Below, in pieces: positions 47,278 through 58,353 of a stretch of 64,000 nucleotides of DNA (position 1 is its first letter; each line of letters starts with the position of its first letter). A program made the position numbers and the translations under genes. The DNA lies in NCBI GenBank assembly GCA_030526485.1, contig JAUNCS010000006.1:1-64000 (forward strand), in the 5' to 3' direction. The notes beneath the pieces are model-generated. The model was given only the letters and a program-made list of their open reading frames with translations. It had not been told where the DNA came from and did not search any database. This DNA is from Erysipelotrichaceae bacterium (GTDB lineage: Bacteria > Bacillota_I > Bacilli_A > Erysipelotrichales > Erysipelotrichaceae).

Positions 47278-48816
47278 ATGCGAGGTTTAAAAACCAATAA
47301 GTCGGTAATCCGTCAAAAGATTTTCGAAGAAATTGCTGCCCTTGCCTATACTGGTGGCGGCGCAGCAGAAATGGAAGAAATTCCATTCAAAATCATTCCT
47401 GGTGAAGTAGCTACTTATCGTGATAGTGTCTTCGCTGAAAGAGCAGTAGTAGGTCAAAGACTGCGCGCTGCCATGGGTATGTCACTATTCTCAGGTGGTG
47501 AATCAAGAAGAATTTCTGAAGGCTTAGAAGATTCAATGATTTCTGACAAATACTATGAACCACCACTAATTGACATCATTAAATATGCATGTCACTCATG
47601 CCCAGAAAAAAGAGTCTTAATCACAAACGGCTGTCAGGGCTGTTTTGAACATCCATGTATTGACGTTTGCCCTAAAAAAGCCATCAAAATGGTAAATGGC
47701 AAATCAGTAATCGATGAAATCCTGTGTATCAAGTGTGGCAAGTGTGCGGAAGTATGCCCATACAACGCTATCATCGTTCAGGAAAGACCTTGTCAGAAGG
47801 CTTGTGGTATTAAGGCTATTTCCAGTGATGAATTTGGCAGAGCCAATATTGATCATTCAAAGTGTGTAAGTTGTGGTCAGTGTCTGGTATCTTGTCCATT
47901 TGGTGCTATCGTTGATAAATCACAGATCTATCAGACAGTAAAAGCTACAATGTCCGATACTCCAGTATATGCAATTGTCGCTCCAGCAATCGCTGGCCAG
48001 TTCCCACAGATGGGCTTTAAAAAGATGAGATCATCATTCAAGGCTCTAGGCTTTACTGACGTTGTCGAAGTAGCAGTAGGTGCTGACTTATGTACTATCC
48101 AGGAAGCTCAGGACTTCATTGATGAAGTACCTGCCAAGATTCCATATATGGCAACTTCTTGTTGTCCAGCATGGGCAAAAATGATCAGAAACGAATTCCC
48201 TGATCAGTCAGAAAAGATTTCAATGTCTCTAACACCAATGGTACTTACTGCCCGTCTAATCAAAAAGGAACACCCTGAAGCTAAAATCTGTTTCATCGGA
48301 CCATGTGCCGCTAAGAAACTGGAAGCTTCAAGAAAAGACGTTAAATCATACGTTGACTTCGTTCTGACATTCGAAGAACTTGGTGGCATGTTTAAGGCTA
48401 AAAATGTTAACTTTGAAGAAATGGCAGAAGAAGAATTACCATATCACACTTCAGCTGATGGCAGAGGCTTCGCTCAATCTGGCGGTGTAGCTCAGGCTGT
48501 AGTAAATCTATTAGGTCAGACTCATCCAGAACTAGAAGTTAAAGTCAATGCTGCTCAGGGCTTGGCTGATTGTAAGAAGATGATGATGCTGGCAAAAGTT
48601 GGCAAATACAACGGTTACCTGTTAGAAGGTATGGCTTGTCCAGGTGGCTGTATTGCTGGTGCTGGTACAATCCTACCAATCAACAGTGCCAAGAAAACAT
48701 TAGCTCAATCAATGACCGAATCTAAATTCAATAGTCCACTAGATGCTTCTTATTCAAATGAACTTGAAGAAATCGAAGAACTATTCTCAGATAGAGATTC
48801 ATTCAATAAAGACTAA
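47278..48816 (+). CDS. Monomeric [FeFe] hydrogenase, group B type
   Basis: This 512-residue enzyme has an Fe-S N-terminal half: C105 and C108, C119 and C122, C127 and C131, then CIKCGKCAEVCP and CVSCGQCLVSCP ferredoxin clusters. The H-cluster motifs are L1 TSCCPAW (293-299), L2 PCAAKK (342-347) and L3 EGMACPGGC (450-458). TSCCPAW with MACPGGC fits the group B monomeric type, whose physiological partner is not settled. It may produce or consume H2 with ferredoxin. No hydrogenase maturation genes (HydEFG) lie in the window. Confidence 0.9.
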   Translation: MRGLKTNKSVIRQKIFEEIAALAYTGGGAAEMEEIPFKIIPGEVATYRDSVFAERAVVGQRLRAAMGMSLFSGGESRRISEGLEDSMISDKYYEPPLIDIIKYACHSCPEKRVLITNGCQGCFEHPCIDVCPKKAIKMVNGKSVIDEILCIKCGKCAEVCPYNAIIVQERPCQKACGIKAISSDEFGRANIDHSKCVSCGQCLVSCPFGAIVDKSQIYQTVKATMSDTPVYAIVAPAIAGQFPQMGFKKMRSSFKALGFTDVVEVAVGADLCTIQEAQDFIDEVPAKIPYMATSCCPAWAKMIRNEFPDQSEKISMSLTPMVLTARLIKKEHPEAKICFIGPCAAKKLEASRKDVKSYVDFVLTFEELGGMFKAKNVNFEEMAEEELPYHTSADGRGFAQSGGVAQAVVNLLGQTHPELEVKVNAAQGLADCKKMMMLAKVGKYNGYLLEGMACPGGCIAGAGTILPINSAKKTLAQSMTESKFNSPLDASYSNELEEIEELFSDRDSFNKD

Positions 48817-50405: not shown

Positions 50406-50430
50406 AGATGGCAACATCTCTTTTATTTTT
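50402..50430. terminator. Bidirectional terminator
   Basis: A 7-bp stem AGAGATG / CATCTCT with GCAA loop and T-rich tail, between convergent ABC-F and antiporter genes. Confidence 0.85.
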
Positions 50431-51598
50431 GAAGCAACTTCTTATAAGAACTATCAATCATAAAAGCCCCCAAAGGTGCACTAAAGACAATGGCTAAGAC
50501 AGCAATACTTAAAATGATATCACCACAGTTTAATCCTAAAGCCAAAGGAACACCACCAATAGCTGCCTGAACTGTTGCCTTAGGCGTATAAGCCATCATG
50601 GTAAACAATCTTTCCTTTTTATTTAAGTCTGTTTTTAAAAGACATAAAGAAACACCAAACATTCTAAAAATTAGAGCTAAAAGTATTAAAACAAGCGCTA
50701 TTAAACCCAAACCTTTTAGATAGCTGATATTTACACTGGCGCCTACCAGAACAAATAAGAAGACTTCTGCCCCTACCCACAGCTTGCCATATTTAAGCGA
50801 CAATCTTTTAGCCACAATATTTCTGGTCATTTGTAAGCCAACCCCAATAAACATCACTGCAATTAAAGCTGAAAAATTAATCGGCGTAGCAAGCATTTCT
50901 TCAATGCTGACAAGGATAAAAGAATAGCTTAGTATAAACAATACTTTAGCAGTATCACGCAAATGATACTTCTTAAACAGGATACCCATAGCCTCACCTG
51001 ATAAGATACCAATCAGAATACCTAAAATAATAGAAACCGGAATATTGATAAAACTTAGAATTGATACTTCACCACCCTGCAAGAGTGATAAGAAAGTAGT
51101 AAATAAGACAATGACATAGACATCATCCACACTGGCTCCCGCCAATATCATCTGCGGTATACCCTGCTTTGTACCATAACCCTCTTCAGTAAGTTTTACC
51201 ATTCTTGGGACAACAACCGCTGGTGAAACGGCCGCTAAGACTGAGCCAAGTAATGCCGCCTCCAGATAATTAATGCCAAAGAATAATGGCGCCAATATCG
51301 TTACAGCAATTATTTCTAAAGTAGCTGGAACAAAACACATTAGAAAAGCAGGTCTGCCCATTTTCTTTAAACCATTAAGATCCAAACCTAGACCAGCCCT
51401 TGTCAGGATGATGATTAAGGCAATCTTTCTAAGATCTGCCGAAATTAAAAGAATCTTTTCATCCAACAAATTAAAAACATAAGGTCCCAACAGTATACCT
51501 GTTATCAGCATGCCCAAAAGTGCTGGAAGCCTTAATTTTTTTGAAATGGTTCCAAGCAAGGAACCACATAATAATATCAGCGCAATACTAAGTAACAT
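50423..51598 (-). CDS. CPA-type cation:proton antiporter
   Basis: This 391-residue membrane protein has about 12 helices. Blocks include LPALLGMLITGILLGPYVFNLL, LTRAGLGLDLNGL, LAGASVDDVYVIVLFTTF (with the SVDD ion-site region) and PKATVQAAIGGVPLALGL. The start at 51598 follows GGAG and the EamA stop codon; the longer frame to 51622 is rejected because it overlaps EamA. No TrkA domain is attached. Confidence 0.82.
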   Translation of the reverse strand: MLLSIALILLCGSLLGTISKKLRLPALLGMLITGILLGPYVFNLLDEKILLISADLRKIALIIILTRAGLGLDLNGLKKMGRPAFLMCFVPATLEIIAVTILAPLFFGINYLEAALLGSVLAAVSPAVVVPRMVKLTEEGYGTKQGIPQMILAGASVDDVYVIVLFTTFLSLLQGGEVSILSFINIPVSIILGILIGILSGEAMGILFKKYHLRDTAKVLFILSYSFILVSIEEMLATPINFSALIAVMFIGVGLQMTRNIVAKRLSLKYGKLWVGAEVFLFVLVGASVNISYLKGLGLIALVLILLALIFRMFGVSLCLLKTDLNKKERLFTMMAYTPKATVQAAIGGVPLALGLNCGDIILSIAVLAIVFSAPLGAFMIDSSYKKLLQK

Positions 51599-51599
51599 A

Positions 51600-52460
51600 T
51601 TATTTCTCCGAAATAGCGACACCTAAAATAATTAATATACAGCCAATAACCGACATTAACGTAATCGGTTCATGTAAGAAAATATAAGCAGCAATCAAAG
51701 TCACAAAGGGTGAAACATAGACATAAATATTGGCCGCCACTATACCAATCTTTACATTGGCAATATTCCATAAGATATAGCAGACGCCACTGGCCAGGCC
51801 ACCTAAAAAGATAAATAGCAATAAATTCTTTAATTCAAAAATTAAAGAGATATTCCAGGGCGACTTATCTAAGAAGGCAATTGGGAAAAGAGTTAAACAG
51901 CCATAGAATAAGACTTTTCTGGTAATCAGTATCTCATCATATTTTGAACTGTAATACTTTAAAAGAATCGAATAAAGTGCCCAACACATAGCTGCACCCA
52001 GAGCCAAAAAATCACCTACAGGACTAAGCTTTAAGACAACTTTGCCATTAAAGATAACCATTATTACACCAATTAGTGCCACAAAGGAGCCACTGATAAA
52101 CTGCTTCTTAATCTTTTCATTCTTATGAATTAAGACATTTAAAAGAATAGTTAATAATGGAGCGAATGTAATCAAGATACTGACATTGGCAGCATACGTA
52201 TAGTTAAGGGCATATGACTCACAAAGATAATAAATCGTTACCCCTACTAAGCCAAAGGGAATCATACCCAAAGTATCTTTTAAATCCATTTTTAAAGATT
52301 TATGATTGTATAACAGAACAAATAGATATCCTACTAAAAAACGATAAAACACCAGTTTAGATGGTGAAAAACTCTCTAATAGTATGGAAGTTCCTACAAA
52401 GGCTGAACCCCAGACAATAATGCAGAATAAAGCTGATAAATGTGCTTTTCTATTACTCAT
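51600..52460 (-). CDS. EamA/DMT family transporter
   Basis: This 286-residue protein has ten hydrophobic segments in two EamA repeats: WGSAFVGTSILLESFSPSKLVFYRF in the first and YSILLKYYSSKY then ASGVCYILWNIANVKIGIVAAN in the second. It probably exports a metabolite. It is first of a two-gene unit with the antiporter. Confidence 0.85.
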   Translation of the reverse strand: MSNRKAHLSALFCIIVWGSAFVGTSILLESFSPSKLVFYRFLVGYLFVLLYNHKSLKMDLKDTLGMIPFGLVGVTIYYLCESYALNYTYAANVSILITFAPLLTILLNVLIHKNEKIKKQFISGSFVALIGVIMVIFNGKVVLKLSPVGDFLALGAAMCWALYSILLKYYSSKYDEILITRKVLFYGCLTLFPIAFLDKSPWNISLIFELKNLLLFIFLGGLASGVCYILWNIANVKIGIVAANIYVYVSPFVTLIAAYIFLHEPITLMSVIGCILIILGVAISEK

Positions 52461-52481: not shown

Positions 52482-52507
52482 AAAAAATCCCTAAGAAACT
52501 TAGAGAT
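52482..52507 (-). terminator. Terminator of the sulfur/tetrapyrrole operon
   Basis: A 9-bp stem ATCTCTAAG / CTTAGGGAT (one G-U) with TTT loop, followed by six T, overlapping the ATPase stop codon on the minus strand. Confidence 0.82.
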
Positions 52508-53255
52508 AAAAATACTTTTCAATATTATTTTCAATATATGTCTTCTTTTCCAGACCAAACTTTTCCTCAATTAATCCAGAATCAACAAATTCCTTTACAT
52601 CGCCCTGATAAATAATTGAACCCTTATCCATCAGAATGATTTCATCAGCGATATTCAAGGCCTCGTTGATATCGTGTATTGTCAGGATAATGGTTTTGCC
52701 AGTGTCTTTTAATTGTTTTAGATGTTTCTTAAATCTTTTGCGATATAGAGCATCTAAAGCACTGGTCGCCTCATCCATTAAAAGAATATCGGAATTCTGG
52801 CAGTACAGCATTGCAAAGTAGGACTGTTGTCTTTCACCTCCTGATAAATGACAGACAAGATTCTTTCTTAAAGACTCAATCTCGCAAAGTTTAATCGCTT
52901 TATCAGCTAATTCATAATCATCACTGTTTAGTCTTCCCATATCATCTGAATAAGGAAAGCGTCCCATACTTACAAGTGTTTCAACACTGATGGCAGGTCT
53001 AGGCAAGACTTGAGGCATTAAAGAAATCTTTTGTGCTCTTTCCTTGTCCTTAAAATCCTTAATATTTTTATCATTTATATAAATATCGCCATTATATTTC
53101 TGTTGTATATAAGACAGACATCTAAGAAGTGTTGTCTTACCTGAACCATTTTTACCCAATATGACAGTAATTTTATTATCAGAAAAAGAAAGATTTACAT
53201 CTTTCAATACTTCTTTTTTGCCATATTTCAGATTCAGATTAGTACACTTGATCAT
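52500..53255 (-). CDS. Metal-chelate/tetrapyrrole-type ABC importer ATPase
   Basis: This 251-residue ATPase is of the FecE/BtuD class: Walker A GKNGSGKTT, signature HLSGGERQQSYFAMLY, Walker B ILLMDEATSALDA and H-loop TIHDINEAL. It is the last gene of the operon; its ATG overlaps the permease stop by 4 bases. Confidence 0.88.
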   Translation of the reverse strand: MIKCTNLNLKYGKKEVLKDVNLSFSDNKITVILGKNGSGKTTLLRCLSYIQQKYNGDIYINDKNIKDFKDKERAQKISLMPQVLPRPAISVETLVSMGRFPYSDDMGRLNSDDYELADKAIKLCEIESLRKNLVCHLSGGERQQSYFAMLYCQNSDILLMDEATSALDALYRKRFKKHLKQLKDTGKTIILTIHDINEALNIADEIILMDKGSIIYQGDVKEFVDSGLIEEKFGLEKKTYIENNIEKYFYL

Positions 53256-54232
53256 AGACTGTTTCTCTTATTAAACAATAGATAAATAAAGAATGGAGCT
53301 CCAATAAAAGCTAAAATAACACCAGCTGATAATTCACTTGGCGCAAAGACCATACGGCCAATTAAATCAGCAGTAACTGTTAAAATAGAACCTAGTAAAG
53401 CAGTAATAATAATCAGATTGCTCATTCTGGCACCAGCTATCTTTCTGGCCATATGGGGTACAAGCAAGCCGACAAAGCCAAGCAGTCCCGCATAAGTAAC
53501 GCTTGAAGCTGTTAAAGCTGAGGCTAAAAGAAGAGTAACAACTCTTAACTTTTTAACATTAACACCCAAAGAAGAAGCCAGATCATCCTTAAGTAACATG
53601 ATTTCCAATTGATTATTTAGTAAATAAACAAGAATTGCGCCACCAATAATAATGATAGCTGGTAAGGCGATATCCTTGAGATATACACCATTAAAACCAC
53701 CAGTCTGGAAATAGACATAAGATGGTAAAACATCAGGATATAGCTGTGACAACATTGAAATAAAGGCGCTGAATAAAGAACTTACCGCCACACCAGTTAA
53801 AACAATAGAAGTCTTAGAAGAATGGGCTATACTTGATCTTGAAATAGCAATTACCAGAACTGTCGTAAAAAAGGCGCCAATAAATGAGGCTAAGGGAAGC
53901 AAATAGAAACTGCCACCGGCAAAGCACAGTACCAGCATTACCATTAAGCCAGCACCTGAGTTTACACCAATGATATTCGGTGAACATAGTTCATTATCAG
54001 TAATGGTTTGAAGTATTAAACCACTTAAGCCCAGGGCCAAGCCTGAAAGGATAGCACCTAAAACTCTAGGCAGTCTTAATTTAAAGACTATCGTATGACT
54101 GATACTTTTATAATCAGTAAAAGCCTTTATTAAATCATTAAAAGATAAAGAAACACTACCAAAACATAGCCCCATAATAGTGACTATTACAAGCAATATC
54201 GATAAAAGTATGATAGTGTTTCTTTTTTTCAT
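53252..54232 (-). CDS. FecCD-family ABC importer permease
   Basis: This 326-residue permease is of the FecCD/BtuC type with about ten helices: RLPRVLGAILSGLALGLSGLILQT near residue 50, CSPNIIGVNSGAGL, and the coupling segment AGLLGFVGLLVPHMARKIAGAR. It overlaps the binding-protein gene by one base. Confidence 0.9.
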   Translation of the reverse strand: MKKRNTIILLSILLVIVTIMGLCFGSVSLSFNDLIKAFTDYKSISHTIVFKLRLPRVLGAILSGLALGLSGLILQTITDNELCSPNIIGVNSGAGLMVMLVLCFAGGSFYLLPLASFIGAFFTTVLVIAISRSSIAHSSKTSIVLTGVAVSSLFSAFISMLSQLYPDVLPSYVYFQTGGFNGVYLKDIALPAIIIIGGAILVYLLNNQLEIMLLKDDLASSLGVNVKKLRVVTLLLASALTASSVTYAGLLGFVGLLVPHMARKIAGARMSNLIIITALLGSILTVTADLIGRMVFAPSELSAGVILAFIGAPFFIYLLFNKRNSL

Positions 54233-55152
54233 TAGTATAAAATATCCGCTAAAGCCTTATAAGCAGCAGCCCACTTCTGATTTGGCTTATAGTTAAATAA
54301 GTCCTTTTCTACAAAGTAATAATTATTATTAAGAACGGCCTTCAAATCCTTCCAGCCATCTTCCTTAAGTAACGATTCCATATATAACTGACTGTCATTA
54401 CCCTTACCCTGACAAACGATTAAGATGATATCCGGATCCTTGTTTACAATTTCTTCCAAAGATAACTCATCAGTCAATAAGTTGCCTGGTTCAACAATAT
54501 TCTTGGCACCCAACTCATCAATCATGACACAGGCAAAGTGATCTTCAGCTGTTTTAGCTCTTGTTGAATTAAAAGCCGAACCAGCTCTGATGAATAAGTA
54601 TGATGGACCATCACCCTTATTATCACTAATTATCTTGTCAGCTTCTTCTTTTACTTTAACACCATATTCCTCATATACTTCTGGACATTCATTGATATCA
54701 GTAAAGATTTTTAGAATGCTTAAATAATCATCGATGTTTTCTTCTCTAAAAGCTGCACAAGGCACACCCATATCCTTAAGCATATTATAAGCTTCAACTT
54801 GAGCACTTAAATCAGCAGTAACAATAAGAAAATCGGGATTGCTGGCAATAAGTTTTTCATTATCAATCTTTAAACCAGCACCATCATTTACCAGTTCTAC
54901 ACCCTCTTTAACAAAGCCTCTTGTAACAGAGTCACCAACTGTTGCAACTACTTCACCCTTGGCTAAAGTCCAGATTTCTGCATATGAAGAAAACAGTACA
55001 GCAACTCTTTCAGGCTTCTTTTCCAGTACTACTTCATTTCCCAGGGAATCTGTAAATGAGTAATAATAAGAATTATTGACTACTTCTTCCTTTTTTTGAC
55101 AGCCACTTAAGACCATCAGACCCAAAAATAATACAACTAATAACTTTTTCAT
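54232..55152 (-). CDS. FecB/BtuF-like binding lipoprotein
   Basis: This 306-residue lipoprotein has lipobox VLSGC. Its core is the helical-backbone type: DSLGNEVVLEKKPERVAVLFSSYAEIW, SVTRGFVKEGVELVNDGAGLKID, then DFLIVTADLS. Ligands of the class include ferric siderophores, heme and cobalamin. The start is the ATG at 55152, two bases past the chelatase stop; the longer frame to 55179 overlaps that gene. Confidence 0.85.
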   Translation of the reverse strand: MKKLLVVLFLGLMVLSGCQKKEEVVNNSYYYSFTDSLGNEVVLEKKPERVAVLFSSYAEIWTLAKGEVVATVGDSVTRGFVKEGVELVNDGAGLKIDNEKLIASNPDFLIVTADLSAQVEAYNMLKDMGVPCAAFREENIDDYLSILKIFTDINECPEVYEEYGVKVKEEADKIISDNKGDGPSYLFIRAGSAFNSTRAKTAEDHFACVMIDELGAKNIVEPGNLLTDELSLEEIVNKDPDIILIVCQGKGNDSQLYMESLLKEDGWKDLKAVLNNNYYFVEKDLFNYKPNQKWAAAYKALADILY

Positions 55153-55153
55153 A

Positions 55154-55801
55154 TTAAATACCCTTATAGATGATTTCAATCAATTCATCCATTTCACCTA
55201 AACACTGATCAGAATATCTGAATTCAGGATGTTCTTCCATAAATTCCAGATAGTGATGACCCCTTGAAATAAATAAAGGGAAGACCAGAAAATCCTTTTC
55301 ATCTATTTCATCATGCATAAAAGAAAGCTTAATATCCCCTCTACCCATTTCTTTCAACAAGTCAAAGTAATCCTCATTGTGACCAAGCTTACTGCCATGA
55401 CCCAACAATAGATATCTTTCACCATTTTCTATTAATAATCCATTAAGTAAAGAAACAATCTCTTTCCTGTTCTGTTTCAGTATAGGTTCTAAAATATCCA
55501 CCCTATCAAACATATCCTTATCAACAGCTTTTAAAAGTCTTTGATACTCAACACCATCAGCCATAATTAACGGAACGATTAAGATGTCTTTATATCCTTC
55601 TTCTTTTAAATCATTTAAACAGTCTTTTACCAGTTTAAGATTTAAAGTCTTTAAAAAAATGGTGCTAGTTAAAGCCAGAAAACAAGGTTTGTTTAACTTT
55701 TTAACTAGTCCCTGATATATTTTATAGAATGTTTTTTCAAATTCAGCAGGCCTGCCTGTACCAAAACAGGCAAGCACTACTGCATCATAATTTTTTAGCA
55801 C
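55154..55801 (-). CDS. CbiK-like anaerobic sirohydrochlorin chelatase
   Basis: This 215-residue protein resembles anaerobic cobaltochelatase CbiK: IVPLIMADGVEYQRLL, the metal-site GHGSKLGHNEDY and a C-terminal HH in ISRGHHYLEFMEEH. CbiK is about 264 residues, so this is short. With a siroheme enzyme upstream it may insert iron into sirohydrochlorin for siroheme, or cobalt for a corrinoid. No other tetrapyrrole genes are in view. It overlaps the upstream gene by 7 bases. Confidence 0.75.
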   Translation of the reverse strand: MLKNYDAVVLACFGTGRPAEFEKTFYKIYQGLVKKLNKPCFLALTSTIFLKTLNLKLVKDCLNDLKEEGYKDILIVPLIMADGVEYQRLLKAVDKDMFDRVDILEPILKQNRKEIVSLLNGLLIENGERYLLLGHGSKLGHNEDYFDLLKEMGRGDIKLSFMHDEIDEKDFLVFPLFISRGHHYLEFMEEHPEFRYSDQCLGEMDELIEIIYKGI

Positions 55802-58353
55802 TTAGCTCCACCGATAACGGTCTTCTTTAGAATTTCTTCCTTGTCGATCTTACCATTTAGAAGCTTGTCTTCAACGTAATCGAAACCTAAACGATCGATT
55901 GTATCAGAGAATCTTTCACCAGTGATACCTTCATCACGGAATAATAGAATTGCCTTTTCAACAATTTCCATAACTTCTGCTTCAGTAGTGAAGACTTTTC
56001 TTAGAGGTACACCGTACTTAACACGTTTACCCCATCTGCCGCCGATAGCAATCTTGTAACCATAAGTACCATCTTCAATAGCCTTGAATGGACACTTACC
56101 GATACATCTGCCACAGTGGTTACATTCATCAGGATTAATTACCAGCTTGCCATCAGCAACCTTAGCGATCTTGATAGGACAAGTATTTTCTACCTGACAA
56201 ACCTTACAGCCATGACACTTGCTAGCATCAAATACTGGAACTCTTTGACCAATGATACCTAGGTCATTTAGATCAGGCTTAACACAGTTGTTTGGACAGC
56301 CACCAACTGCAATCTTGAACTTATGAGGAAGAGTAACTGTATGCCACTTGATATAGAATTCGTTATGAAGTTTTTCACTTAGACCATAAGAATCTAATAA
56401 ACCGTATTGACATGTAGTACCCTTACAAGCAACTACTGGTCTTACAAGTGAACCAGTACCACCTGTATCTAGACCTCTTTCCTTTAGATAAGCGATACAG
56501 TCATCAATCTTATCAAATGGTACGCCCTGGATTTCCAGAGTAAGTCTTGTAGTCATAGCTACTTCACCTGAACCAAATAGAGCAGAAGCTTCTAGAACTG
56601 CACGATGTTCATCAGCAGTAATCTTACCGTTACGAGTAATTACACGAACGTTGAATACATCTGGATATCTCTTATCCTGTAAGCAACCTAAGCCCTTAAC
56701 ACGCTTGATTTCGCTAGCAGGAAGAGTACCAGTGATCTTAACCTTAACTGGAGTGAAAGTTAAGCCACCTTCAAGTACCTTAGTATTTGTGTAACCAAAG
56801 CTTCTTAATCTGTTTTGAGCAAGGTAAGCTCTCTTACCCTTGCCACAAACAAGCAGGATCTTAGCATCTTTATCTAAACCTTCAACAGGTCCATTAATCT
56901 TTTCGAAGTTAACAGCCTTAGCACCAGCAACTGTTGGAACAGCCTGTACATCTACTACTGTGTAATCAGCACAAGCACCAGCAGCATATTCAACTGGAGT
57001 AACTGTATCTAACTTACCACTCATCTTGTTTTCAAGAACAAAGCATGCGTTAACCAGCGGATGGATAGCAGTTGAGAATGGAGGTGCATAAGCGAAGTCC
57101 ATATCTAAGTAGTCTTCAACCTTTAGACCAACAGATAGACCTACAACTGCAGCATCTACTACCTTATCTACACATTCATCGCCTAATACCTGGATACCAA
57201 GTAATTTGCCGCTAGCCTTATCAGCTACAAGCTTAACGATTAGTGAAGAAGAACCAGGCATGTAATGAGGCTTGTTTTCAACTACTGAAACAGCAGTTAC
57301 TACATCAAAGCCAGCATCCTTAGCAGCCTTTTCAGTTAAACCAGTTCTACCAGCATTGAAGCCTTCAGTTAGTTTAACAACACCAGTACCTAAGCAGCCA
57401 TGGTAAGCAGCATCCTGACCAGCTAAGTTCTTAGCTAATAAACGACCTGTAATATTAGCAGTAGAACCCATCTGTGAGCGTTGTGCAGTACCAGTGATTC
57501 TATTCTTAACGATAGCGCAATCACCTACTGCATATACATCAGCAACTGAAGTAGCCATCTTTTCATCAACAACGATAGAGCCATTGATCATTTCTAAACC
57601 ACTTACAAATGAAGTAGCAGGTCTTACACCAATTGCCATAACTACTACATCACCAGCTAACTTCTGGCCATTAGCGATAATGCCATCAGCCTTAGTTTCA
57701 CCTGTGATTTCTTCAATCTTAGAAGATAACTGAATTCTAGTGCCGCTGTTTCTTAATACCTTAGTAGCATAGTCTGCAACTTCGCTATCAAGTAAACCAG
57801 TAAGAACCTGATCAGCCATATCGACAACAGTTACATTTAAGCCCTGTTTTCTTAAGTTTTCAGCGATTTCTAATCCAATGAAACCAGCACCAGCAACAAC
57901 AGCTGACTTGCAGTTGTTGTCCTTAACATACTTTCTTAAAGCAATCGCATCACTTGGCTGTCTCATAGGGAAGACGCCTTCAAGATCAATACCCTTTAAT
58001 GGAGGTAAGATTGGTTCAGCACCAGAAGCGATGATTAACTTGTCATAAGTTTCGCTTAATTCTTCGCCACCCTTAACTGCCTTAACAGTCTTAGCAGCAA
58101 AATCTACACCAGTAACTTCGCATTCAGTCACAACATTAGCCAATGTTAGACCTTCATACTTTTCTGGAGTATTCACAATTAGTTCAGCTTCGTTTTCAAT
58201 CACACCGCCAACATAGTAAGGTAATCCGCAACCAGCATAAGAGATATCTTTACTCTTAGTTAGGATTTTTACTTCAGCAAATGGATTTTCACGACGCAAT
58301 TTAGCCGCAACCTTAGTACCAGCTGCGACGCCACCGATAATTATAATTTTCAT
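55795..58353 (-). CDS. CoA-disulfide reductase / rhodanese / siroheme reductase fusion
   Basis: This 852-residue three-part protein starts with an FAD/NAD(P)H disulfide reductase (residues 1-445, GGVAAGTKVAAKLRR, active Cys42 in SYAGCGLPYY, YAVGDCAIV). Residues 455-540 are a rhodanese domain with active-site Cys503 in VCGKGKRAY. Residues 555-852 are a sulfite-reductase-like part: siroheme/4Fe-4S cysteines C643, C648, C686, C690 (CKGTTC and GGCPNNC) and a two-cluster ferredoxin (C713, C716, C719, C725 and C744, C747, C750, C754), in the order of AsrC. It is likely to reduce persulfide, sulfite or polysulfide. GGAGG precedes the ATG. Confidence 0.88.
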   Translation of the reverse strand: MKIIIIGGVAAGTKVAAKLRRENPFAEVKILTKSKDISYAGCGLPYYVGGVIENEAELIVNTPEKYEGLTLANVVTECEVTGVDFAAKTVKAVKGGEELSETYDKLIIASGAEPILPPLKGIDLEGVFPMRQPSDAIALRKYVKDNNCKSAVVAGAGFIGLEIAENLRKQGLNVTVVDMADQVLTGLLDSEVADYATKVLRNSGTRIQLSSKIEEITGETKADGIIANGQKLAGDVVVMAIGVRPATSFVSGLEMINGSIVVDEKMATSVADVYAVGDCAIVKNRITGTAQRSQMGSTANITGRLLAKNLAGQDAAYHGCLGTGVVKLTEGFNAGRTGLTEKAAKDAGFDVVTAVSVVENKPHYMPGSSSLIVKLVADKASGKLLGIQVLGDECVDKVVDAAVVGLSVGLKVEDYLDMDFAYAPPFSTAIHPLVNACFVLENKMSGKLDTVTPVEYAAGACADYTVVDVQAVPTVAGAKAVNFEKINGPVEGLDKDAKILLVCGKGKRAYLAQNRLRSFGYTNTKVLEGGLTFTPVKVKITGTLPASEIKRVKGLGCLQDKRYPDVFNVRVITRNGKITADEHRAVLEASALFGSGEVAMTTRLTLEIQGVPFDKIDDCIAYLKERGLDTGGTGSLVRPVVACKGTTCQYGLLDSYGLSEKLHNEFYIKWHTVTLPHKFKIAVGGCPNNCVKPDLNDLGIIGQRVPVFDASKCHGCKVCQVENTCPIKIAKVADGKLVINPDECNHCGRCIGKCPFKAIEDGTYGYKIAIGGRWGKRVKYGVPLRKVFTTEAEVMEIVEKAILLFRDEGITGERFSDTIDRLGFDYVEDKLLNGKIDKEEILKKTVIGGAKC

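Follow-up and report, generated by a model that had tools for sequence, protein, structure and literature searches.

The fusion gene and its conserved residues

In a 64,000-nucleotide stretch of DNA from an Erysipelotrichaceae bacterium (the window; assembly GCA_030526485.1, contig JAUNCS010000006.1, genome G000 in our numbering), one gene encodes a protein that joins a relative of coenzyme A (CoA)-disulfide reductase (CoADR), a rhodanese domain and a sulfite reductase/ferredoxin module. The gene opens an operon that continues with a CbiK-like chelatase gene, fecB, fecC and an ATPase gene, with overlapping ends and starts. The features of the fusion gene are as follows.

55795..58353, minus strand: fusion gene CoADR-rhodanese-sulfite reductase/ferredoxin, 852 aa (open reading frame call, Pfam, NCBIfam)
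57034..58353, minus strand: FAD/NAD persulfide-reductase half, residues 1-440 (Pfam and PDB alignment)
58228-58230, minus strand: codon of the catalytic Cys42
56749..57033, minus strand: rhodanese domain, residues 441-535 (Pfam)
56845-56847, minus strand: codon of the rhodanese Cys503
55876..56721, minus strand: sulfite reductase module, residues 545-826, with the ferredoxin cysteines 713-754 (Pfam, PDB alignment, clade alignment)
55798..55812, minus strand: C-terminal tail GGAKC, last residue Cys852 (clade alignment)

The reading frame starts with ATG, with AGGAGG six bases 5' of it. An original prediction made from the letters had proposed a three-domain chain of 852 residues and asked for a domain search, which bore it out: Pyr_redox_2 (1-289) and Pyr_redox_dim (333-431) in the front part, Rhodanese (475-531, 28.8 bits, cut-off 22.2), and NIR_SIR_ferr (565-625), NIR_SIR (634-826) and Fer4 (738-760) in the back half all scored over the curated Pfam cut-offs. 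The best NCBIfam model for the front half was CoA-disulfide reductase (TIGR03385), at 381 bits against a cut-off of 578.8; since this cut-off was not reached, we class the front half as a relative of CoADR and not as CoADR itself. Likewise below the cut-offs were AsrC (TIGR02912) on the back half, with 94.8 bits against 324.1, and NirB on the front half, with 192.4 bits against 578.35. Neither asrA nor asrB was found beside the fusion gene among the reading frames of the window, and Pfam found no [2Fe-2S] domain of the BFD type, the NirB kind, in the fusion protein. Against the PDB, the front half matched over its full length the A. fulgidus NADH persulfide reductase NoxA-3 (6pfz, 5.4e-90) and CoA-persulfide reductase (8a56, 7.4e-84), while the back half matched Fsr (7np8, 4.5e-36). 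An AlphaFold2 run on the full protein with a two-row alignment gave pLDDT 33 and pTM 0.22, and the model was not used.

The protein thus carries what characterises a CoA-persulfide reductase, that is, Pyr_redox_2, dimerisation and rhodanese domains together with Cys42 and the rhodanese cysteine. It shares with CoA-persulfide reductase, Npsr and CoADR-RHD (8a56, 6pfz, 3icr) the match over residues 1-533 and, by prediction, the use of NADH, FAD and CoA. Those enzymes end after the rhodanese domain, whereas here a sulfite reductase is fused or adjacent to it. A second full-length copy with 80% identity occurs in another metagenome-assembled genome; it was found by a search with exact peptides of one sequence, which reaches near relatives only, and corresponds by contig number and place (locus L007) to the copy in genome G593. 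Because of this copy, and because the 272 family genomes hold ten fused copies in all (one with a frameshift), the gene is neither a chance frame nor an assembly join.

We then mapped the siroheme module onto MjFsr. Residues R355, R388, R423, K460 and K462 of MjFsr correspond to R570, R603, R638, K678 and K680 of the fusion protein, and C428, C434, C468 and C472 correspond to the siroheme-cluster cysteines C643, C648, C686 and C690. PMC10229431 assigns these MjFsr residues to the siroheme cluster and the sulfite site. The four cluster cysteines and the R/R/K/K sulfite site of a siroheme sulfite reductase are therefore present in the fusion protein. All of these residues, the eight ferredoxin cysteines (713, 716, 719, 725, 744, 747, 750 and 754), C42, C503 and C852 were invariant in eight fused sequences (alignment A1), and the siroheme-module residues were kept in five relatives encoded by two genes as well. 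In the alignment rows that cover them, C42 was kept in 12 of 12 and C503 in 14 of 14. Every cysteine named in the original prediction was thus present and conserved in the aligned relatives.

Its remark that the first cluster pair is C-x4-C and not C-x5-C was also correct. All 14 clade members in the alignment, 9 fused and 5 split, have the spacing CX4CXnCX3C in place of the canonical CX5CXnCX3C, while CX5C was found in a stand-alone enzyme of genome G304 and in nine AsrC proteins; the CX4C spacing is hence a trait of the clade. These nine AsrC proteins came from 12 loci, with L031, L032 and L039 (other strand) outside the comparison and the L031 enzyme inspected separately. Arg603 is a marker of the aSiR-like, assimilatory type. 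From these observed residues, we infer for the back half a siroheme-[4Fe-4S] sulfite reductase of the assimilatory type. Fsr (7np8, 7npa) and AsrC have the same siroheme-[4Fe-4S] and ferredoxin module and the same active-site residues, but the fusion protein differs from them in having no F420 domain and no AsrA/AsrB, in the CX4C spacing and in an additional GGA[K/T]C tail.

Fused and split relatives

Searching the 272 family genomes (G and L numbers denote genomes and loci) with the back half returned 21 genomes at E <= 1e-15, 15 of which fell in the clade of the fusion. Ten carry the fused form (G000, G593, G078, G126, G104, G110, G584, G066, G053, G120), and five carry two adjacent genes 14-36 bases apart (G605, G134, G030, G114, G035). 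As to the taxonomic spread that the original prediction asked about, a sample of 392 genomes of the phylum gave no clade member outside the family, and neither did the 43 genomes of another family in the same order. A search of viral contigs with an 8-sequence alignment gave no relative, and plasmid and phage records held none covering 80% of the whole fusion protein. All fused forms fall into a single group in the tree (support 86/100), set among the split forms; one fusion event would be the simplest reading. The occurrence of the two halves as adjacent genes in 5 of the 15 clade genomes indicates that they work together. The copy in G078 (L067:7712-10785) is frameshifted into overlapping frames of 481 and 558 aa, reflecting either an error or a decaying gene.

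The sulfite reductase module grouped in the tree with a stand-alone enzyme from a cluster of the sulfate-assimilation type (one row, long branch), and AsrC, judged from this tree, is not its closest relative. The stand-alone enzyme, of 288 aa, lies in G304 in a cluster at L073:8547-16851, whose genes we take from their sequences to be AprAB-CysDN-MetY-ThiF-JAMM-TusA.

The chelatase and the importer

The genes that follow the fusion gene are listed below.

55154..55801, minus strand: CbiK-like chelatase, 215 aa (PF06180, 50.1 bits against 26.2); it starts at a GTG that overlaps the 3' end of the fusion gene
54232..55179, minus strand: FecB-type lipoprotein, substrate binder of the importer (PF01497, 72.1 bits; lipobox LSGC)
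53252..54232, minus strand: FecC/FecD-type permease (PF01032, 298.1 bits)
52500..53255, minus strand: importer ATPase (PF00005, 89.6 bits)

A Peripla_BP_2 lipoprotein, a FecCD permease and an ABC ATPase in one operon make this a FecBCD-type importer, with the same protein families as the importers of heme, B12 and siderophores. The chelatase has two histidines conserved in 6 of 6 relatives, which we take to be metal ligands, and scored 31.9 bits against the cobaltochelatase equivalog, whose cut-off of 400 was not reached. The importer adjoins the fusion gene in all 10 fused loci (the G593 contig breaks off within fecB, and the remainder stands at the start of another contig). Enzyme and importer are separated by a CbiK-like gene in G000, G593, G126, G104 and G078, and a SirC-like gene follows the importer in G584; neither was seen at G066, G110, G120 and G053. 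The split locus of G030 also has the importer, with a SirC-like gene.

The FecB of the window stayed below every curated NCBIfam cut-off, its weak matches including the heme binder IsdE, the B12 binder BtuF and binders of siderophores; the FecB at L062 reached 78.2 bits with IsdE (cut-off 298.65). A search of 12 kb around the operon and of eight related loci gave no cobalamin riboswitch. In the FecB tree the fused loci lie in two places, so the pairing of enzyme and importer arose or was exchanged more than once.

Missing siroheme-synthesis genes and the distribution of the importer

HemC (PF01379) and HemB (PF00490) were not found in any of the 10 fused genomes, while HemC was present in 4 of the 5 split genomes. 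Siroheme methyltransferase (SUMT) was not found in G000, which is 97.8% complete; the completeness of metagenome-assembled genomes limits what any single absence means. In nine of the ten fused genomes, those searched for tetrapyrrole methylases (PF00590), each had one such gene. NCBIfam identified it as RsmI in three of these (L049, L050, L052) and also in G030 (L051), and from the N-terminal motif we take it to be RsmI-like in the other six. The genes hemC and cobA-hemD are on the same contig near the enzyme in G605 and G134 and on other contigs in G035 and G114. HemC and CobA-HemD are present and HemB was not found in G035, G114 and G605 (L068/L071, L069/L072 and L078); missing contigs or porphobilinogen salvage may account for this.

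The absence of HemC alone says little, as only 23 of the 272 genomes have it; the argument lies in the contrast within the genomes that have a siroheme enzyme. NIR_SIR (PF01077) occurred in 43 of the 272 genomes and the FecB of the window, at a single threshold (E <= 1e-25) fixed before the result was known, in 21. Among the 43, HemC was present in 21, FecB in 20, both in none and neither in 2 (G006 and G518, the latter 58% complete). In other words, FecB was found in 20 of the 22 siroheme-enzyme genomes without HemC and in 0 of the 21 with it. The other 229 genomes had HemC in 2 and FecB in 1 (G116, 67% complete). With related genomes treated as independent, Fisher's test gave p = 2.6e-10 for the mutual exclusion of HemC and FecB within the 43, and p = 1.9e-17 for FecB against NIR_SIR, or 1.5e-7 over 59 genera. 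Two contrasts within genera do not depend on this assumption: g35 (G035 versus G104, G078 and G126) and g31 (G580 and G141 versus G530, G546 and G552). This distribution suggests that the genome imports siroheme or a precursor, its own synthesis having been lost, and we consider cofactor import the most novel and best supported inference of the analysis.

The same type of importer also stood beside different siroheme enzymes. Of the 21 genomes with FecB, 18 had a siroheme enzyme no more than 10 kb away on the same contig. In 11 of them this was the fused or the split form described above, in G546, G552 and G530 an AsrC-like enzyme, and in G003, G060, G039 and G028 a NirA-like enzyme of 518-538 aa. 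The AsrC label of G530 stands on its PF01077 match and frame length; the NirA label of G003 stands on an NCBIfam match below cut-off, that of the remaining three on their length and Pfam domains. In G024 and G107 the enzyme is on another contig, and the importer of G107 follows a gene of the formate/nitrite-transporter family. The pathway genes beside the importer differed: cobA-hemD and sirC in G003, G060, G039 and G028, sirC alone in G030, G584 and G530, cbiK in G000, G593, G126, G104, G078 and G552, and none seen in G066, G110, G120, G053, G546, G024 and G107. In our own reading, these differences may reflect a stepwise loss of synthesis, with the ring imported at different stages.

The CobA-HemD and SirC genes beside the importer are at L091:12035-14264, L092:3535-5722, L087:9341-11557 and L088:10574-13344, in genomes in which HemB and HemC were not found. 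Such a truncated pathway is unusual and suggests import of an early ring.

The C-terminal cysteine

The original prediction had overlooked the invariant C-terminal cysteine as well as the two-gene relatives and the fact that chelatase and FecBCD genes accompany the enzyme in a genome that lacks siroheme synthesis. All 15 clade members end in GGA[K/T]C with cysteine as the last residue (9 intact fusions, 5 split forms and, for the frameshifted G078, the back part), while the residues preceding it vary. This tail was absent from the G304 enzyme and the nine AsrC proteins compared. A conserved cysteine at a flexible C-terminal end is the hallmark of a DsrC-like arm, and the glycine-rich end with its invariant last cysteine suggests that the tail is likely a sulfur-carrying arm of this kind, although no DsrC domain is present. 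Compared with DsrAB-DsrC, the likeness would lie in a siroheme enzyme served by a terminal cysteine able to take sulfur; on the other hand, the arm here is part of the enzyme, and Arg603 is of the assimilatory type.

Several precedents bear on where such sulfur could go. DsrC accepts sulfur from the DsrAB siroheme (PMC10229431). For CoA-persulfide reductase, PMC9405070 describes a rhodanese cysteine, C508, that is persulfidated in cells, a swinging CoA arm proposed to carry sulfur to C42 at the flavin, and the movement of sulfur, not of single electrons, between the domains. Npsr prefers persulfides and polysulfide according to PMC7969121, and a 2026 report gives zero-valent sulfur as a direct product of assimilatory sulfite reductases (PMC13188885). 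Taken together with the Cys852 arm, these precedents make a relay from siroheme through Cys852, Cys503, CoA and Cys42 to NADH plausible by analogy.

Proposed function and alternative explanations

We propose that the operon serves the reduction of sulfite to sulfide on salvaged siroheme, with the sulfur relayed to the rhodanese domain and released with NADH; on the evidence of sequence and gene distribution, we lean towards this explanation by a little. FecBCD would import siroheme or a precursor such as sirohydrochlorin, as the genome distribution suggests, and the CbiK-like chelatase would insert iron if the ring arrives metal-free. The C-terminal half would reduce sulfite at the siroheme, fed through two ferredoxin clusters from ferredoxin or FAD. 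At least part of the sulfur may leave the siroheme at the zero-valent stage on Cys852, to be passed to Cys503; as in CoA-persulfide reductase, NADH, FAD, CoA and Cys42 would then free it as H2S. An anaerobe would likely use this enzyme to detoxify sulfite and to obtain sulfur. In G134, the gene immediately downstream of the split pair (L070:4776-5906) belongs to the YeiH family (PF03601; TIGR00698 below cut-off), which suggests that the enzyme is aimed at sulfite; YeiH drives sulfite resistance in Salmonella, according to PMC12880088. A sulfonate lyase was considered as the sulfite source beside the G030 locus and rejected, since the glycyl radical enzyme encoded at that place is a pyruvate formate-lyase.

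Several observations weigh against parts of this explanation. Heme is compatible with the sequence as the cargo of FecB, as the protein lies under all curated cut-offs and the heme binder IsdE is among its weak matches. In G003, G060, G039 and G028 the importer stands beside CobA-HemD and SirC, so that these genomes would import an earlier ring, or another tetrapyrrole. G006, which is 99% complete, has AsrC and neither HemC nor FecB, a true exception at the threshold used, and the three split genomes with HemC in which HemB was not found do not fit easily either. As for the relay, the aSiR-like Arg603 fits a full six-electron reduction on the siroheme without it. This last point also favours an all-in-one NADH:sulfite reductase similar to NirB, in which electrons pass from NADH through FAD and the ferredoxin clusters to the siroheme, the six-electron reduction is finished there, and the rhodanese domain and Cys852 are accessory. 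We hold this to be doubtful, with some weight on its side. The two ferredoxin clusters are in place, the NirB model scores on the front half, and the R/R/K/K set is as in Fsr, which performs three two-electron steps without a carrier (PMC10229431). NirB, the NADH nitrite reductase, likewise combines an NADH/FAD reductase and a siroheme module in one chain, and the domain order resembles what we take to be that of NirB. However, the rhodanese domain replaces the middle region of NirB, four more [4Fe-4S]-type ferredoxin cysteine pairs are present, and the reductase belongs to a different branch. Because both thiols of CoA-persulfide reductases, C42 and C503, are kept and the BFD-type cluster was not found, the electron route from NADH through FAD and the clusters to siroheme, which the original prediction had put forward, is not the likeliest, while its siroheme sulfite reductase part stands. 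Such a route also leaves the invariant terminal cysteine with no role, and the halves it would link are two distinct proteins in 5 of the 15 clade genomes.

The importer and the chelatase could instead belong to ordinary uptake of heme, cobalamin or iron, placed next to the enzyme by chance or to provide iron. The weak FecB matches, including that of L062 to IsdE, speak for this, yet we rate it as unlikely: unlike that of known FecBCD importers, the distribution tracks siroheme enzymes in genomes without siroheme synthesis, no cobalamin riboswitch was found near the operon or at the eight related loci searched, and the remnants beside the importer are siroheme-pathway genes. A role in iron supply is inadequate because the siroheme-enzyme genomes that keep HemC lack this FecB. 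It is also improbable, in our judgement, that the physiological substrate is nitrite or selenite and not sulfite. Fsr reduces both as well (PMC10229431), the CX4C spacing may change the site, and LysR genes at 3 of 4 loci tested best matched a selenium-associated model, all below its cut-off. By contrast, the sulfite-binding residues are kept, sulfur-handling domains lie in the same chain, a YeiH-family gene stands beside one split locus, and the fourth LysR gene best matched the YeiE model. Least probable of all, in our judgement, is a back half that has lost siroheme and acts as a cluster-only electron-transfer or persulfide protein in a genome unable to make the cofactor. HemB, HemC and SUMT were indeed not found and the CX4C spacing is altered, but every siroheme-cluster and sulfite-binding residue is invariant, and split relatives with CX4C occur in genomes with siroheme synthesis, the genes lying near on the contig in G605 and G134.

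Going beyond the operon, we tentatively suggest, at somewhat less than an even chance, that siroheme is a traded cofactor in the family, with a dedicated FecBCD replacing its synthesis stepwise (early ring, sirohydrochlorin, finished siroheme), and that the fusion is a one-chain machine from sulfite to sulfide whose DsrC-like tail hands sulfur to the rhodanese domain and the NADH persulfide reductase. If the import holds, sulfite reduction and H2S formation in such anaerobes would depend on neighbours or diet, and a genome that seems to lack the means of making siroheme may still belong to a sulfite reducer; this one importer type stands beside siroheme enzymes of three kinds. If the tail relay holds, the DsrAB-DsrC principle would operate inside one polypeptide, tied to NADH persulfide reduction. 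The enzyme is a new combination of known parts, and the importer, if our reading is right, has a new cargo for a known kind of transporter. A literature search over titles and abstract starts, mostly without subscription papers, returned no matching description of siroheme or sirohydrochlorin uptake, import or salvage beyond one paper on a fungal mutant, and for the fusion or this family it returned nothing but one paper on selenium metabolism.

Neighbouring genes

Beyond the importer ATPase, 39 bases away and on its strand, lie two genes at 50423-52460 of the window that were not seen at the other loci inspected; they are presumably an EamA-type transporter and a cation/proton antiporter-like protein. 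Genes of the arylsulfotransferase family lie near the AsrABC-FecBCD cluster of G552 (L089:10069-11934) and a few kb upstream of the fusion gene at L007 (L007:2112-3536). On the other strand of the window, at 47278-48816, a monomeric [FeFe] hydrogenase of group B1 scored over its NCBIfam cut-off; it possibly uses the same ferredoxin pool as the fusion enzyme.

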